Below, piece after piece: positions 2,130-16,931 of a stretch of DNA of 46,049 nucleotides (its first letter is position 1; each line of letters starts with the position of its first letter). The DNA is taken from positions 1-46,049 of the forward strand of contig WGCU01000005.1 of the NCBI GenBank assembly GCA_015493635.1, in the 5' to 3' direction. The notes beneath the pieces are model-generated. The model saw nothing but the letters and a program-made list of their open reading frames with translations. It did not search any database and had not been told where the DNA came from. The translations under genes and the position numbers were made by a program. Source of the stretch: Spirochaetaceae bacterium (lineage in GTDB: Bacteria; Spirochaetota; Spirochaetia; B11-G9).

Positions 2130-2789
2130 CTAATTTCGGGAGATAACCTGGGAAATATAACTGTTTTTGAAGGTATTGATCTTTACTAACCAGTTCAGAA
2201 ACTTTTCAGCTTCCGCTTTTTTGGAATAGGGGCCGATACGAACACGGTAGTAATCTACACCGCCGATGGTTTTAATGGTTATTCTGCTCGTCAGCCCTTC
2301 TCCGGATAATGTGTCCCGTGCACTTTCTGCACTTGTTCTGCTTTTGTATGACCCCGCCTGTATCCAGTATTCCTTAACAGCTGTCTTTACCGGTCTGGAT
2401 ACTGCCTTATGTGTTTCTACAGCTTTAGAAGTTACCACTGCAGCAGGCTTTTGAGGAGCTGCTTTTATTACCGGTGCAGGAGAGACAGGTACTGTTTTCG
2501 GAGGAGCTGCAGCTTTCTTTCCATCAGTTTCTCCATATACAATGGTAAAATTTCTATCTGTCTGCTTACTTTTTTCTTCTTTCGGAGTAATACCCGGATA
2601 CTCTTTCGAATTCCGTACCCACTCAACAGGATCAAAACCGATAGCAGCTTTTCCTGCAGCCGGAACGGCAGTTTTTTCAGCTGTCTGAGTATCTTTTGAG
2701 GGATAGAGCCAGAGCAGCCCTGCTGCAAACACAATGCAAAGAAAAGCAGCAACTGATATGATTACCCATAATATTTTTTTTTGTTCCAT
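2130..2789 (-). CDS. SPOR-domain inner-membrane protein
   Basis: A 219-residue protein with a short cytoplasmic N-terminus and one membrane span at about 7-29 (WVIISVAAFLCIVFAAGLLWLY). A Pro/Lys/Ala/Val-rich periplasmic linker leads to a SPOR domain at about 140-215. The SPOR signature includes YWIQAGSYKS, then YYRVRIGPYSKKAEAEKFL. SPOR domains bind peptidoglycan with denuded glycan strands at division sites, so a cell-envelope or septal role is likely. It starts one base after the coaE stop and ends directly against the KamA-family gene, inside the same operon. The overall architecture resembles FtsN/DedD-type proteins, but there is no sequence basis for naming it as either. Confidence 0.85.
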   Translation of the reverse strand: MEQKKILWVIISVAAFLCIVFAAGLLWLYPSKDTQTAEKTAVPAAGKAAIGFDPVEWVRNSKEYPGITPKEEKSKQTDRNFTIVYGETDGKKAAAPPKTVPVSPAPVIKAAPQKPAAVVTSKAVETHKAVSRPVKTAVKEYWIQAGSYKSRTSAESARDTLSGEGLTSRITIKTIGGVDYYRVRIGPYSKKAEAEKFLNWLVKINTFKNSYISQVISRN

Positions 2790-2790
2790 T

Positions 2791-3378
2791 TTATTTTCTC
2801 TCTCCCAAAGCTGTTATTATCTTCACTACATCAGTTTCCAGGATATGTACAGAAGAACCGTTCCATATAGTATAACTATCGACAACTTCGTGATAGTATT
2901 TAGCATCCAGTTTCCTCTGTGCCGCCATTCTCTTTAGAATATGACATACTGAATGTGAATCTCTGACGAGAGCCCTCCCCATCCTCCGCAGGAACGGTGA
3001 CTCTACCCACAACACAGCATCACAAAGACGGTTAAGACCCATTTTATGAAGAATGGCCGCATTTATAACGATTGAGCAGTTTCCGCATTCCTGTATCTCT
3101 TTTTTGCAGAGATCAACCATCACGGGATGAATAATCGATTCGAGAGCGGCAAGAGCTTTTCTACTGTTAAAAACAATATCACCGAGTTTTTTCCTGTCAA
3201 TTTCTCCGTTGTTATCCAATATATCTTTCCCGAACAGAGAAACAACCTCTACTGTTTTTTCTTTCAGAGCTCTATATCCAAGCCGGTCAACATCAATTTC
3301 ATACCACCCATGAGATACAAAAATCCGGGAGACAGTATTTTTCCCTGAACAATACTTACCGGTTATTCCAAGAACCAC
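2791..3378 (-). CDS. coaE: Dephospho-CoA kinase
   Basis: The 195-residue product phosphorylates the ribose 3'-OH of dephospho-CoA, the last step of coenzyme A synthesis, in the cytoplasm. The P-loop is GITGKYCSGKNT at residues 4-15, a variant of the usual GLTGGIGSGKS. IDVDRLGYRAL corresponds to the family D-x-D region, and LESIIHPVM is the typical CoaE helix motif. Length matches the family (about 195-205). The start is GTG at 3378, directly after the polA TAA, so the gene is translationally coupled to polA. The coaE-polA pairing occurs in many bacteria. The unusual P-loop is the only oddity; the invariant GK is retained. Confidence 0.9.
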   Translation of the reverse strand: MVLGITGKYCSGKNTVSRIFVSHGWYEIDVDRLGYRALKEKTVEVVSLFGKDILDNNGEIDRKKLGDIVFNSRKALAALESIIHPVMVDLCKKEIQECGNCSIVINAAILHKMGLNRLCDAVLWVESPFLRRMGRALVRDSHSVCHILKRMAAQRKLDAKYYHEVVDSYTIWNGSSVHILETDVVKIITALGERK

Positions 3379-6475: not shown

Positions 6476-6898
6476 CTACCCTGCTATATTTATTCCGCCT
6501 GAAGTTCTCCCTTTTACAGATGTCTTGGTAATAACCTGCTGCCAGGCATCTCTGAGATCCGCAACATACGTATGTACTTTTTTTAAAATACCCACATCTT
6601 TTTTAACATTTGCCTCCATGAGCTGTTTATTAAAAAACATATAGAGACTGAACAGATTGCCCGCAATTTCTCCACCTTTCTCAAAATCAAGAGAAACCAT
6701 GAGTTCAGTTATGAGGTCCTGTGTCTTGATAATGGCATTACTCACAGAATCCAGCCTGGGATCGCCGCTCTCGAGTATCTCAATTGCATAATTCAGCTGC
6801 CTGACAGCTTCATCATAGATAAGTATAATGAGCTTTCCACCGCTGGCAGTCTTAATATGAGTTTCTTTGTATGCGTTTAATCTGTTGATCGTACTCAC
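6476..6898 (-). CDS. fliS: Flagellar secretion chaperone FliS
   Basis: A 140-residue FliS that binds the flagellin C-terminus in the cytoplasm, preventing premature polymerisation before export. The N-terminus NRLNAYKETHIKTASGGKLIILIYDEAVRQL is split here as the Y-x-x-T-x-x-x-T-A-s-x-x-k-L-I-x-x-L-Y-D-x-A pattern typical of FliS. The helical core and length agree with the family. The start is GTG at 6898, preceded by GGAGG with 7 bases of spacing. It is the first gene of a tight run fliS, FlgN-like, polA, coaE, SPOR, KamA on the minus strand, which ties flagellar export to DNA and CoA functions in one transcript. Confidence 0.9.
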   Translation of the reverse strand: MSTINRLNAYKETHIKTASGGKLIILIYDEAVRQLNYAIEILESGDPRLDSVSNAIIKTQDLITELMVSLDFEKGGEIAGNLFSLYMFFNKQLMEANVKKDVGILKKVHTYVADLRDAWQQVITKTSVKGRTSGGINIAG

Positions 6899-9290: not shown

Positions 9291-10595
9291 TTATAACAGC
9301 TCTGCCGCCAGCTCCGCTAACCGGCTCCGTTCCGATTTATCAAGAAGCACATGCCCATAGAGATCCTGCCCCTTAAACGCTTCTACAAGATAGGTTAACC
9401 CGTTCGAATTGGAATCAAGGTAGGGGCTGTCAATTTGATACGGATCACCGGTAAGAATGATTTTTGTACCTTTCCCGGCCCTGCTGACGACCGTTTTAAT
9501 TTCATTGGGAGAAAGATTTTGTACTTCATCTATAATAATGTATTCCTTAGGCAGAGAGCGGCCCCGTATATAGGTTAACGCTTCAATTTCAATTTTCTCC
9601 GAATCAAGAAGCGCAGCTTTATCCCGCATACCAGGATACTTGTGTACCGAGAGAATGTACTCAAGATTATCAAATATCGGCTGCATCCAGTGACTGAGTT
9701 TTTCCTCTTTGTCCCCCGGCAGATACCCTATATCCTTCCCGAAAGGGACTACCGGCCGGGATACGAGGACCCGTGAATAGATATCTTCATGAAACACATG
9801 GTACAGACCAGCTGCAACAGCAAGCAGTGTTTTCCCTGTTCCGGCTTTTCCCACAAGGGTAACCAGAGAGATTGAATCATCAAGGAGAAGATCAAGAGCC
9901 ATCCGCTGTTCCATGTTAAGAGGTTTTACCCCGCTGACTGCCGTCCTCAGATCTTCAACAAGGTTAAGCTGCCCAGCATCTGCATCATAACGCGCGAGAA
10001 CGCGTTCTTCACTGTCTTTGGTCAGTAAAACCGCAAATTCATTGGGATACAGTTCATCTTTCCACGGAACAGTTCCTATGCCGGTAATATCTTTCAGGGT
10101 TTCGGCGGAGATATCAATTTCGCGGTAACCGGTATACAAATCCGAAATATTAATTTTCTGTTTCTCATAATCAACCGCTCTTAGGCCCAGAGATTGTGCT
10201 TTTACCCTTGCGTTTATATCCTTTGAAACAAAAAAGACCCTTTTCCCCTCATGCTGCAGATCAAGGGCGGTTTGAATAATCTGATTATCAATTTTACTCC
10301 GGGTTAACCCGTCCGCCATCTCTGACCTCCGGTACGAAACGGCAACCTTGAGAATGGAGCCGTTTTCCATTTTTACACCGGTATTCAAATTTCCATGTTT
10401 TGCAGCTTCATCTATAAACCGAATGGCGTGACGGGCATTTCTTCCCCGTTCATCAGAGAATGTTTTCAGTTTATCCAGTTCTTCCAGAACACCCAAGGGT
10501 ATGACAACTTCATTATCCCTGAATGACAGGATCGCATCCGCTTTATGAATAAAAACATTTGTATCGATAACAAAACTTTTTACCGCGTTATTCAT
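9291..10595 (-). CDS. PIN-PhoH family ATPase (YlaK-like)
   Basis: A 434-residue cytoplasmic protein of the PhoH2-type architecture: an N-terminal PIN ribonuclease domain (about 7-140) fused to a PhoH ATPase (about 215-434). PIN acids are visible in VIDTNVFIH and in LEELDKLK. The ATPase has Walker A in GKAGTGKTLLA and Walker B in YIIIDEVQNLSPNEIKT, then the family motif ILTGDPYQIDSP. Such proteins are proposed RNA helicase/RNases, and the PIN domain is related to VapC toxins. It sits 12 bases after the ODP-GGDEF gene and is probably cotranscribed with it. The PIN acids look intact, so nuclease activity is plausible. Confidence 0.9.
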   Translation of the reverse strand: MNNAVKSFVIDTNVFIHKADAILSFRDNEVVIPLGVLEELDKLKTFSDERGRNARHAIRFIDEAAKHGNLNTGVKMENGSILKVAVSYRRSEMADGLTRSKIDNQIIQTALDLQHEGKRVFFVSKDINARVKAQSLGLRAVDYEKQKINISDLYTGYREIDISAETLKDITGIGTVPWKDELYPNEFAVLLTKDSEERVLARYDADAGQLNLVEDLRTAVSGVKPLNMEQRMALDLLLDDSISLVTLVGKAGTGKTLLAVAAGLYHVFHEDIYSRVLVSRPVVPFGKDIGYLPGDKEEKLSHWMQPIFDNLEYILSVHKYPGMRDKAALLDSEKIEIEALTYIRGRSLPKEYIIIDEVQNLSPNEIKTVVSRAGKGTKIILTGDPYQIDSPYLDSNSNGLTYLVEAFKGQDLYGHVLLDKSERSRLAELAAELL

Positions 10596-10607: not shown

Positions 10608-12377
10608 TCATTCAATTTTAGTGTCAATAATAATCCGGTTTCTGCCCCCTGCTTTTGCCAGATAGAGAGCTCTGTCCGCCCGTTCTATAAATATTTCCAG
10701 AGGTTCCGTCTGCCTGCGGTACGCAATACCTCCGCTTATTGTTACCCTGAGACCGGGAATACCCCTGCCGAAGGAGAGTGCTTCCACCTGATGCCGGATC
10801 CTTTCCGCTACATTTGCAGCTATTTCATGTTCAGGAGCGACAATAAAAGAAAGAAACTCCTCCCCCCCGTACCGGACATTGATATCTTCATCACGGGTAT
10901 TCTTTAAAATAACATCCGCTATAGCGGTCAGGACATTGTTTCCCCTGCCGTGGCCGTAGGTATCATTCACCTTTTTAAAATAATCAATATCAAACATAAC
11001 AGCGGCAAAAGAAGCGGATTCGTCTCTGTCATGTATTTTCATCAAACGGGAGACCGCTTCCTCCATGTAGAGTCTTGTATAGAGACCGGTTAAAGAATCG
11101 CGGATAGCCTGTTCATAGAACCGCTGCTTATCCATTTTCATATTGCGGAGTATTATCTCCCGCTCCACCGCCACACTCAGGGGAAGAGCAATCTGCTCAA
11201 TAACCTCTTCAAGTTCTTCTTCCATAACGATCTCTTCTTTCAGCTCCAGTATGGAAAGGGAAATAACCCGCTTTGTCTCTGTGGAAAAAAGGGGAAGCAG
11301 GAGGAGTTTCTTTTCCAGAATGTAATATTGCGAACCGTAGAGGTCTCTCCACTTTTTTCTGCTTAACCCTATCAAACTCATGTTGAGCAGGGTATTTTGT
11401 ATTCCCTGATCCTGAATGACATTGTCATTACTCAGATCTATAACTGCTCCGCTGTGATCCCTGACAAAAAATTTCAAATCCACTGCCGGAAGCAGTTTTT
11501 GAATACTTTCCTGCAGGGCTTTCCGGATCTCCATAAAGTCCCGCTTTAAAACCAATATCTCAAGTGAGTTTTTCAGCAGCCTGTTAAGTTCGGAAATACG
11601 GTATACGTTCGTTGTACTCCTGGCCATGAGAAAGATACCGCACTCCAGTTCTTTCAGCTTGTTTATCATGTACGAAACAAGCTTCTCCGGTATTATTGAC
11701 CCGTGCTGGGGGGCAATACCGCTGAGACTAAGCTTTTCAAACTTTTTAACAGAATGCTTCAAAATCTCTTTTGAAGGCATATAATGTTCATGAAAAAGTC
11801 TCATGGATTCAAAGTAATGCTTATCCTGAGCAACCAGTGACCAGCCGGTAGTAAACCCTCCGAAAATATCACTGGAAAAGAGAATTTTACTTTTTTTATC
11901 GTAGGTGGTAAAAGCTCCCGGAAAGTGAAGATAGGGGGTAAATATAAACTGCAGTTCATGATGCGGGAGCGAAAGTTTCCATTCCATCTCCTCAACACAC
12001 TGTAGAGGAAGTTTCAATTCGTAGTGTTTCAGCAGCGCATTGGTACGCCAATGGCTCATAATTACCGCATCAGTCCTTGTAACCATCTCATCCATCTGGA
12101 TAAGGGCTCCCGTAATATCAGGATCCTGATGATGAGCAATAAAATACTTGATATGTGAAAAGGGTATAATCTCTTCTATCTTCTGTAAAGTCCAGGGAAA
12201 CGTAAGTTTTGATCCGGGATCAACAAGAACAGAGCTGTCTCCATCCTCAATAAGATAGACATGGCACTGAAAGGGATCATCCGGAAGGTAATGCCCCACC
12301 CACCAGATTGAATCATCAAGCTGTACAGCGTGGTTGAAGTCCAGTTTCTCATTAGCAACGTTTTTAAGATATTTCAT
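10608..12377 (-). CDS. ODP (diiron oxygen-sensor) - GAF-like - GGDEF diguanylate cyclase
   Basis: A 589-residue cytoplasmic signalling enzyme with no membrane span. Residues 15-240 form a flavodiiron-type metallo-beta-lactamase domain with diiron ligands H83, D85 and D87 (HHQDPDITG), H151 (LHFPGAF), D170 (LFSSDIFG) and H225 (APQHGS). No flavodoxin domain follows, which matches the ODP class, known as an Fe/O2 sensor in treponemal chemotaxis. Residues about 265-410 look GAF-like. The GGDEF domain (420-585) has FDID, an active-site GGEEF at 504-508 and an intact inhibitory I-site RDED at 495-498 five residues before it. It should make c-di-GMP in response to oxygen or iron. The residue aligned with the last histidine of the first canonical motif is Ile88. 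Confidence 0.88.
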   Translation of the reverse strand: MKYLKNVANEKLDFNHAVQLDDSIWWVGHYLPDDPFQCHVYLIEDGDSSVLVDPGSKLTFPWTLQKIEEIIPFSHIKYFIAHHQDPDITGALIQMDEMVTRTDAVIMSHWRTNALLKHYELKLPLQCVEEMEWKLSLPHHELQFIFTPYLHFPGAFTTYDKKSKILFSSDIFGGFTTGWSLVAQDKHYFESMRLFHEHYMPSKEILKHSVKKFEKLSLSGIAPQHGSIIPEKLVSYMINKLKELECGIFLMARSTTNVYRISELNRLLKNSLEILVLKRDFMEIRKALQESIQKLLPAVDLKFFVRDHSGAVIDLSNDNVIQDQGIQNTLLNMSLIGLSRKKWRDLYGSQYYILEKKLLLLPLFSTETKRVISLSILELKEEIVMEEELEEVIEQIALPLSVAVEREIILRNMKMDKQRFYEQAIRDSLTGLYTRLYMEEAVSRLMKIHDRDESASFAAVMFDIDYFKKVNDTYGHGRGNNVLTAIADVILKNTRDEDINVRYGGEEFLSFIVAPEHEIAANVAERIRHQVEALSFGRGIPGLRVTISGGIAYRRQTEPLEIFIERADRALYLAKAGGRNRIIIDTKIE

Positions 12378-12403
12378 CGCTTCTCCTTACAGCTTACAGA
12401 AAG

Positions 12404-12432
12404 AGTGTAAAAAATAAAAACTCTTCTGTCAA
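12404..12432 (-). promoter_or_regulatory. Sigma-70-type promoter of the ODP-GGDEF gene
   Basis: On the minus strand TTGACA (12432-12427) is followed after 17 bases by TACACT (12409-12404). Transcription would begin near 12397. This leaves a leader of about 20 bases that contains AAGGAG before the ATG at 12377. Confidence 0.65.
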
Positions 12433-12461
12433 ATTTAATGGATCAAAAGGATTAAAAAAGA

Positions 12462-12467
12462 TAGAAT
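12462..12467 (+). promoter_or_regulatory. Candidate -10 of a leaderless transcript
   Basis: TAGAAT ends 6 bases before the ATG at 12474. The -35 is poor (TGGATC) and there is no Shine-Dalgarno, so transcription and translation may start at the same base. Confidence 0.35.
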
Positions 12468-12473
12468 ACCGGT

Positions 12474-15440
12474 ATGAAATTGCAGGACCTGAATTACTAT
12501 TACAATAAACTGAAGTTTGGAGAGGATAATTTTCATGATTTAATGAATTTCAGAATTAAAAAGATACTGCTTATTTCAACCTTCTACGATGCGTATATAT
12601 TTGAACATGACGCAAAACTTTCCAACCAGATTGTCGGCGAATACCACTCTCTCAACCTGACCACAGTCCCCCGGATTATTATTGCTCCCACAGGTAAAGA
12701 CGCACTTGAAAAAATGGAACAGGAACCCTTTGATCTTGTTATCACCACCATGAGAATCGGCGAAATCTCTCCTTTTGATCTCAGCCGGAAAATTCATGAG
12801 ACGTATCCCGGTCTTCCGGTACTCCTGCTGTTAACGGTAAAAACAGACATTACCCTTGTTGCAAGAAACCAGGATAAAATAGATACTTTTGAAGAAGTCT
12901 TTCTCTGGAACGGTAATCCGAGACTTTTTCTTGCCATGATTAAATACGTGGAGGACAAGCGGAACGTGTCCTACGATACTGAAAACGGATTTGTCAAGGT
13001 TATACTTCTGGTAGAGGACTCCATCACTTTTTCTTCCATATATCTTCCCCTGTTCTACGGTGAGATTATGGAACAAACCCAGCGTCTTATTTCTGAAGAG
13101 CAGAATGACAGCAAGAAATATTACCGCATGAGGACCCGTCCAAAGGTCCTCCTGGTAAGAACCTTCGAAGAGGCTATCGAAACAATTAATCAGTACAAAG
13201 ACCATCTCATGGGAATAATATCCGATATCGAATATACCCATCATGGAGAAATAGATACTGATGCAGGATTTAAACTGATTGAGTATCTGCGTGATACCGG
13301 ACTCGATACACCGGTTATGCTTCAATCCTCCGATATATCGAAGCAGGAACGGGCAAATGCAGCGGGAGTTAATTTTCTGCATAAAAAATCTACGGTTCTG
13401 CTCAATGAAATCAGCCGGTTTATCTACCGGAATCTGGGATTCGGTAGTTTCATATTCAGAACACCGGACGGGAAAGAGCTGGGAAAGGCACGGCACCTTA
13501 AGGATTTCGTTTCCATTCTTCATGAAATTCCCGCTGAAGCTCTTATCTACCACAGTAAAAATGATCACTTTTCTTCCTGGCTCACCGCGCATGGTGAGTT
13601 TGAAGTAGCGCGGAGACTTAAACCGGTAAAAGTTTCAGATTTTAAAACTATCGAAGACCACAAAGCCTTCCTCATCAAGGTTTTCAAGGATGTTAAAGAG
13701 CAGAGGAACAGGGGCAAGATTGTTGATTTTGACAAAGAAAGCCTTGATCAGGAAGATGTTGTCATCCGGATTGGAAGCGGATCCCTGGGAGGGAAAGGAA
13801 GAGGCCTTGCATTTTTCAACGCTCTTCTTTCTATTATGGATATAGACAGATATTATGACAATGCAAGAATCCGTATACCGAAAACAACAATTATCGCAAC
13901 AGAAACCTTCGATCTCTTTCTTGATGAGAATGATCTGATTGATATACACCTGGGGAAAACGGATGAAGAGATTAAAAAAGCATTTCTGACAGGAGAGCTT
14001 ACTGATCAGGTAAAAGCTCAGCTGCGTGATTTCATTGCTTCATGCAGCCAGCCCATAGCTGTACGGTCTTCAGGGCTGCTGGAAGATTCCCAGTCGCAGC
14101 CCTTTGCGGGAGTATACGCTACTTACATGCTGCCCAACGATAACACCGATAGTGAGATCCGGTATAAACAATTAACTAATGCGGTAAAGCTTGTTTTCGC
14201 GTCAGTCTTTCTGCATGAAGCGGTTACCTACATTGAAACATTAAACTACGGCATTGAAGAAGAAAAAATGGCAGTAATCATTCAGGAACTAGTAGGTGAA
14301 TCTCACGGAGAATATTTCTACCCTCATTTTGCAGGAGTGGCACAGTCCTATAATTACTATCCCATTTCCCACATGAAGCATTCCGACGGTTCAGCTTCCC
14401 TTGCTGTCGGCCTGGGGCAGGCTATCGTTGGAGGAGGCAGGAACTACATGTTCTGTCCGGCTCATCCTGAAATACTGTATGGCTCCGTGGAAGACCACCT
14501 TAAAAATTCCCAGACTGACTTCTATGCACTCGATATGGGAGAATCAAACAGTAATCTCATGAAAGGAGAGGAAGCAACCCTTGCAAAACTGCCCCTGAAA
14601 ATTGCGGAGGAACATAAAACACTAACCCATCTTGCATCTGTCTGGGATTATCAGAATGAAAGAATTGTTGACGGATTATCAATACCCGGTCCAAGAATTG
14701 TAAACTTTGCCAATATTTTAAAGTATGATTATTTTCCTCTTTCAAAAATACTGCGCCAAATTCTTGATATTTCCGAACAAGCCCTCGGTATTCCCGTTGA
14801 AATAGAATTCGCCGTTGACCTTACCAAAAACAAAGACAAGGGAAAAGTACCGACATTCTATCTGCTGCAGGTACGTCCTCTTTCGGTAAATGTCGAGGAA
14901 ATGGATATAGATTTTGATACAATAAACAAAGAGGATATAATCCTTTACTCTCAGCAATCTTTGGGGAACGGGACAATAAATACACTTGAAGATATTGTCT
15001 ACATTGATCCGGCAGTCTTTGATAATACAAAAACTATTGAGATGCAGAAAGAAATTGAGGCTATTAACAACCAGTTTAAGGCAGAAGAGAAAGAGTACAT
15101 CCTTATCGGACCGGGAAGATGGGGTTCTCGGGACAGATTTTTAGGTATTCCCGTCCATTGGGGGCAGATTAACCGGGCCCGGATCATTGTGGAAACAGGC
15201 TTGAAGGATTTTGATGTTGAACCATCCCAGGGATCACATTTTTTCCATAATCTTATAGCCATGAATGTCGGATACTTTAATATCCCTTTTCATAATGCGG
15301 GTAATTCCTTTCTGAACCAGGAGTATCTCACACGATGTGATGTCATTTCCCGCGGCCGCTACTTTACCCGGATAAAAACACACAAACCGGTAACGGTACG
15401 GATGGACGGGAAAAACGGAAAAGCATTAATAGTTGCATGA
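12474..15440 (+). CDS. Double-receiver protein with PEP synthase-type ATP-grasp domain
   Basis: A 988-residue cytoplasmic protein. Residues about 28-150 are a receiver-like domain in which the phospho-acceptor position reads DLVITTM, without aspartate. Residues about 178-325 are a second receiver that keeps LLVEDS, the aspartate in IISDIEY and the lysine of FLHKKS, so it may be phosphorylated. From about 435 the protein matches the PEP synthase/PPDK nucleotide-binding domain: GSGSLGGKGRGLAF and AVRSSGLLEDSQSQPFAGVY. There is no phosphohistidine swivelling domain and no PEP-binding barrel, so it cannot be a complete PEP synthase. This large family is known from Bacteroidetes and other phyla without an assigned function; phospho-transfer controlled by the receiver is an inference. 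It is transcribed divergently from the c-di-GMP gene. Confidence 0.8.
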   Translation: MKLQDLNYYYNKLKFGEDNFHDLMNFRIKKILLISTFYDAYIFEHDAKLSNQIVGEYHSLNLTTVPRIIIAPTGKDALEKMEQEPFDLVITTMRIGEISPFDLSRKIHETYPGLPVLLLLTVKTDITLVARNQDKIDTFEEVFLWNGNPRLFLAMIKYVEDKRNVSYDTENGFVKVILLVEDSITFSSIYLPLFYGEIMEQTQRLISEEQNDSKKYYRMRTRPKVLLVRTFEEAIETINQYKDHLMGIISDIEYTHHGEIDTDAGFKLIEYLRDTGLDTPVMLQSSDISKQERANAAGVNFLHKKSTVLLNEISRFIYRNLGFGSFIFRTPDGKELGKARHLKDFVSILHEIPAEALIYHSKNDHFSSWLTAHGEFEVARRLKPVKVSDFKTIEDHKAFLIKVFKDVKEQRNRGKIVDFDKESLDQEDVVIRIGSGSLGGKGRGLAFFNALLSIMDIDRYYDNARIRIPKTTIIATETFDLFLDENDLIDIHLGKTDEEIKKAFLTGELTDQVKAQLRDFIASCSQPIAVRSSGLLEDSQSQPFAGVYATYMLPNDNTDSEIRYKQLTNAVKLVFASVFLHEAVTYIETLNYGIEEEKMAVIIQELVGESHGEYFYPHFAGVAQSYNYYPISHMKHSDGSASLAVGLGQAIVGGGRNYMFCPAHPEILYGSVEDHLKNSQTDFYALDMGESNSNLMKGEEATLAKLPLKIAEEHKTLTHLASVWDYQNERIVDGLSIPGPRIVNFANILKYDYFPLSKILRQILDISEQALGIPVEIEFAVDLTKNKDKGKVPTFYLLQVRPLSVNVEEMDIDFDTINKEDIILYSQQSLGNGTINTLEDIVYIDPAVFDNTKTIEMQKEIEAINNQFKAEEKEYILIGPGRWGSRDRFLGIPVHWGQINRARIIVETGLKDFDVEPSQGSHFFHNLIAMNVGYFNIPFHNAGNSFLNQEYLTRCDVISRGRYFTRIKTHKPVTVRMDGKNGKALIVA

Positions 15441-16931
<1,491 letters not shown>

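Follow-up and report, generated by a model that had tools for sequence, protein, structure and literature searches.

In the chemotaxis of Treponema denticola, oxygen is sensed by an ODP (PMC7666581), in agreement with what the earlier note on this DNA had stated about the class. Its metal site has been described as the motif H-x-D-x-D plus a Gln before the last His, and in the ODP of Thermotoga this Gln has been reported in place of the His which is missing with respect to flavodiiron proteins (PMC7785958). Fusions of ODPs with signal transduction domains were reported by Muok et al. in 2019, as far as that paper is cited in PMC7319448, so that the idea of a portable ODP sensor has a precedent. 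A diiron sensor with a different fold is found in Bhr-DGC from V. cholerae, which is ten times more active in the diferrous than in the diferric state (PMC9388753); the redox control of this enzyme provides a precedent for the control of a cyclase by a diiron site. A census of c-di-GMP sensors published in 2022 includes protoglobin, PAS-heme, hemerythrin, flavin and disulfide sensors for oxygen and redox; the terms "ODP" and "lactamase" are absent from its main text (PMC8846402). We also searched the literature for ODP together with GGDEF and found nothing relevant, leaving aside the partner list of Muok et al. 2019. The use of ODP with c-di-GMP appears not to have been catalogued.

We have studied the window, by which we mean the whole stretch of 46,049 nt analysed, from a Spirochaetaceae bacterium. 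Exactly one intact open reading frame is found at positions 10608..12377 of the minus strand. It starts with ATG and codes for a protein of 589 aa, which we call ODP-DGC; it is formed by a diiron ODP domain, a middle region and a GGDEF domain, as it is apparent from the reading frame, the Pfam matches and an alignment of seven orthologues. Residues 36–226 (11700..12272, minus strand) match PF19583 in a Pfam scan with 206.9 bits and an E value of 3.4e-61. The curated cut-off is 27.2 bits, which flavodiiron proteins also pass; it is the ligand pattern which tells an ODP apart. A whole-genome search places the domain at the same position. When the N-terminal 260 residues are compared with the PDB, the top matches are 6qrq (E 1.8e-26) and 6qnm (E 1e-20), two deposited oxygen-binding diiron proteins, while flavodiiron proteins rank below them (best E 3e-9). 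Residues 424–581 (10635..11108, minus strand) match GGDEF with 128.3 bits and an E value of 3e-37, likewise well beyond the Pfam cut-off; they contain an RxxD I-site (495–498) and a GGEEF signature (504–508). Flavodoxin, hemerythrin and PAS families were not found in the Pfam scan of this protein. An architecture with an ODP sensor and an intact diguanylate cyclase is strongly supported by these matches. The earlier note had described an ODP domain joined to a diguanylate cyclase in one protein, with no flavodoxin domain and with an intact GGEEF and I-site, and it was right in these three points.

The metal site can be followed residue by residue. The motif H83-Q-D85-P-D87 lies at 12117..12131, the predicted ligands H151 and D170 at 11925..11927 and 11868..11870, and the pair Q224-H225, an ODP-specific Gln and the last His ligand, at 11703..11708, all of them on the minus strand. 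H151 and D170 were aligned with the ODPs of known crystal structure, and the motif was compared with flavodiiron proteins and with other ODPs. All seven residues, H83, D85, D87, H151, D170, Q224 and H225, are invariant in the seven orthologues, which have 45–59% identity. The six ligands named in the earlier note (all but Q224, which it had overlooked) are thus present, and it was also correct that one flavodiiron ligand is absent: it is the His after D87, replaced by I88 in this protein. We aligned 34 domains: the pattern H-x-D-x-D, H, D and Q-H is common to 32 of 32 ODPs, and the other two sequences, flavodiiron proteins from the genome of the window, carry Glu at position 85, His at 88 and Ser at 224. 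The flavodiiron ligand pattern H-x-E-x-D-H is absent from ODP-DGC. Judged by its residues, the site is of the ODP type and not a defective flavodiiron site, since it shares H-x-D-x-D and Q224-H225 with the ODPs and flavodiiron proteins differ from it at positions 85, 88 and 224. The presence of the diiron ligand set is strongly supported by the alignment. These residues would form a non-heme diiron site in the N-terminal ODP, with Q224 replacing the flavodiiron His. We place the site by alignment only, since single-sequence AlphaFold runs on the whole protein and on the ODP domain alone gave a pLDDT of 32 and no usable fold. At the other end of the protein, the upstream metal Asp of the GGDEF domain (D463), the I-site residues R495 and D498, five residues before GGEEF, and the active-site signature G504–F508 are also invariant in the seven orthologues.

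We propose, with a probability of roughly 0.62, that ODP-DGC is a soluble, single-chain diguanylate cyclase which responds to oxygen or Fe(II) through its diiron sensor. The site would bind O2 or react with it and pass to a long-lived oxidised or peroxo state, rather than to oxidase turnover, because it has no flavodoxin partner for quick re-reduction. It could also lose or gain iron, depending on the Fe(II) supply. The change at the site would travel along the middle region, through the helix at its C-terminal end, and would alter the geometry of the GGDEF dimer; the cyclase is expected to require this dimer for c-di-GMP synthesis and to be inhibited by its product at the RxxD I-site. If the protein behaves like the hemerythrin cyclase Bhr-DGC, the reduced (diferrous) form would be the active one, and O2 would lower c-di-GMP and favour movement. 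This sign is a guess, which we place only slightly above an even chance. Binding of iron, response to O2, coupling to the cyclase, its sign and the link with motility are all features which we infer for this protein. The direct oxygen-to-motility switch of the earlier note is a reasonable proposal.

The same site might control the same cyclase in response to another signal: Fe(II) or iron status, NO, peroxide or the general redox state. We think that this is unlikely, but it deserves attention. Both NO and O2 react with flavodiiron sites, and NO reductases are found among the PDB matches of the N-terminal domain. The ODP is also named an Fe[II] and oxygen sensor in the title of the paper from 2019, as cited in PMC7319448. 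The sequence does not separate such forms of sensing from the sensing of O2, but the best-studied ODP acts as an oxygen sensor, which argues for O2 as the signal in ODP-DGC.

The middle region (residues 250–420, 11118..11630 of the minus strand) had been described as a GAF-like domain in the earlier note, a description which must be weakened. Residues 250–420 have no relevant match in Pfam or in the PDB, even at E 10. We compared the region by hhalign with a profile built from 30 GAF domains of five genomes: the score is 20.4, with a probability of 4.5%, against 16.0 for the best of 30 column shuffles, and the match covers only the C-terminal half of GAF. A GAF-like nature of the region is possible on this weak profile similarity. 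If it is accepted, the domain directly before GGDEF would occupy the usual position of a sensor; the signal might then come from it, and the ODP might bind another metal or be a structural or dimerisation module. This is quite improbable in our opinion: the ODP ligands are all kept across the orthologues, whereas conservation along the protein is lowest in the middle region, with 24–44% identity to the window protein and 14 invariant columns.

Flavodiiron proteins act as O2/NO reductases. The homology of the ODP half with these oxidases and NO reductases could therefore be taken to mean that it is a catalytic scavenger of O2 or NO, with the GGDEF domain merely as a tether of little regulatory meaning. 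Against this, the protein has no flavodoxin or other electron-donor domain and keeps its GGDEF active site and I-site intact, and two complete flavodiiron proteins are encoded separately in the genome. We thus find the scavenger highly improbable, and a regulated cyclase is the reading which we maintain.

The genome is a draft with 101 contigs, but a chance join, a frame artefact or an assembly artefact of two neighbouring genes is already refuted by orthologues which have the whole architecture, full-length and without stops, in five further genomes (45–59% identity). The fusion is found in six of the eight genomes of its own family, which cover all three genera, and it is present in all four genomes of the family which are over 90% complete and have low contamination. 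Two genomes of a second family in the same class also have it, with 45–46% identity. In a maximum-likelihood tree of ODP domains the cyclase fusions group in a single clade (100/100), to which no other architecture belongs. The ODP-GGDEF fusion is real and is inherited as a unit. Two orthologous loci of draft genomes have internal stops, which could reflect decay or errors of assembly.

The fusion is not widespread: when 393 genomes were drawn evenly from the phylum, the window's own genome was the only one with a full-length match. Outside this draw, a search of other contigs gave a single match, to GGDEF only, in an Arcobacter MAG. Among viral contigs no related loci were found.

The surroundings of the gene are partly conserved. 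Ahead of its start there is a divergent intergenic region of 96 bp (12378..12473). It contains the ribosome-binding site AAGGAG and, at 12432–12404, a promoter-like TTGACA-17-TACACT, which is only suggestive because chance alone would give such matches in the region. On the plus strand follow the gene of a response-regulator-like protein of 988 aa with a PPDK_N ATP-binding domain identified by Pfam (12474..15440) and that of GdhA, an NADP-glutamate dehydrogenase (15531–16931). The divergent arrangement of these two genes with respect to ODP-DGC is kept across the family. On the other side, only 12 bp downstream of ODP-DGC, an open reading frame with Pfam matches codes for a PIN-PhoH protein (9291..10595, minus strand). 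It is probably co-transcribed with ODP-DGC, and the same order of the two genes is found in a second locus (L028).

The earlier note had placed the gene next to a flagellar gene run, which we reject: Pfam scans of the genes in the window gave a single flagellar gene, fliS (6476–6898), at 3.7 kb from ODP-DGC. It lies in a housekeeping block with polA, coaE and the genes of a polysaccharide deacetylase and a SPOR protein. In three genomes of a sister genus of the same family, a chemoreceptor-like gene follows ODP-DGC; the two of these neighbours which were scanned both have an MCP signalling domain. The genome of the window gives 16 GGDEF, 3 EAL, 3 PilZ and four flagellin matches, so that c-di-GMP has competing sources as well as erasers (EAL) and receivers (PilZ). 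One PilZ gene lies close to three of the flagellin matches on a single contig of the same genome (C53, 57209–69704); it is a possible c-di-GMP receiver for motility.

ODP domains are also coupled to other partners. In one family of the same phylum we have found both ODP-SpoIIE-TPR proteins, with a SpoIIE-type phosphatase and TPR repeats (five loci), and fusions of ODP with a class III adenylate/guanylate cyclase (L074:2542–4206 and L075:2433–4211). Nine other loci of the phylum have an ODP followed by a GGDEF domain which has lost its signature and by a REC domain; from their sequence these proteins are probably non-catalytic relays. Stand-alone ODPs are also present, one of them adjoining a short MCP (L001) and another a gene for an Hpt-HATPase (CheA-like) kinase (L015, G042:C61).

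A separate group, which we call Cys4-ODP, has a conserved insert with four cysteines, CxxC...C...CP, similar to iron-sulphur or zinc sites. In two other families its gene is located directly upstream of a PAS-GGDEF gene and overlaps it (L022:1474–2436 with 417–1487, and L121:1480–2286 with 2286–3368). Cys4-ODP genes are also found beside GGDEF genes in plasmids of Fusobacteria bacterium ZRK30 (CP102406.1, CP102407.1 and CP102408.1), where the GGDEF genes which follow look frame-broken. ODP was thus joined with a diguanylate cyclase on at least two occasions: within one chain in the clade of fusions, and as an operon in the Cys4-ODP/PAS-GGDEF arrangement.

We somewhat favour the idea that ODP is a general plug-in sensor of O2 or Fe(II), which has been joined separately to GGDEF, class III cyclase, SpoIIE and degenerate GGDEF-REC; in that case no c-di-GMP synthase governed by a diiron sensor with the metallo-beta-lactamase fold would have been described before ODP-DGC. 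A real coupling would give low-oxygen bacteria a route free of heme and flavin by which O2 or ferrous iron sets c-di-GMP, and its sensor would have a fold that is not related to those of the oxygen sensors known in the c-di-GMP network. The fusions and neighbours of ODP (cyclase, class III cyclase, phosphatase, kinase and chemoreceptor) also offer a panel in which one diiron domain is connected to different outputs.

The comparison with known systems can be summarized as follows. Flavodiiron proteins such as ROO, FprA and flavorubredoxin share with ODP-DGC the metallo-beta-lactamase diiron core, but they have a flavodoxin domain, Glu at 85, His at 88 and Ser before the last His. The ODPs of Treponema denticola (TDE2498) and Thermotoga maritima (6qrq/6qwo, 6qnm/6r9n) are closer: they also belong to PF19583, with the same ligands and no flavodoxin. 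However they are stand-alone proteins which act via a chemoreceptor, whereas ODP-DGC has the sensor and the diguanylate cyclase in one chain. In this respect it resembles the fused ODPs of Muok et al. 2019, at least as these are cited, in which ODP is a sensor module joined to a signalling output. Among the cyclases, DgcO/DosC and PdeO/DosP (globin-coupled and PAS-heme) have in common with ODP-DGC the control of c-di-GMP by O2, which is reported for them (PMC8846402) and proposed here for ODP-DGC; they differ in the use of heme and in their folds. Bhr-DGC of Vibrio cholerae, a hemerythrin-GGDEF protein, also has a non-heme diiron sensor N-terminal to GGDEF, and its redox control has been measured (PMC9388753). 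Its sensor has the four-helix fold of hemerythrin, whereas ODP-DGC has no hemerythrin match and its ODP belongs to the metallo-beta-lactamase fold.
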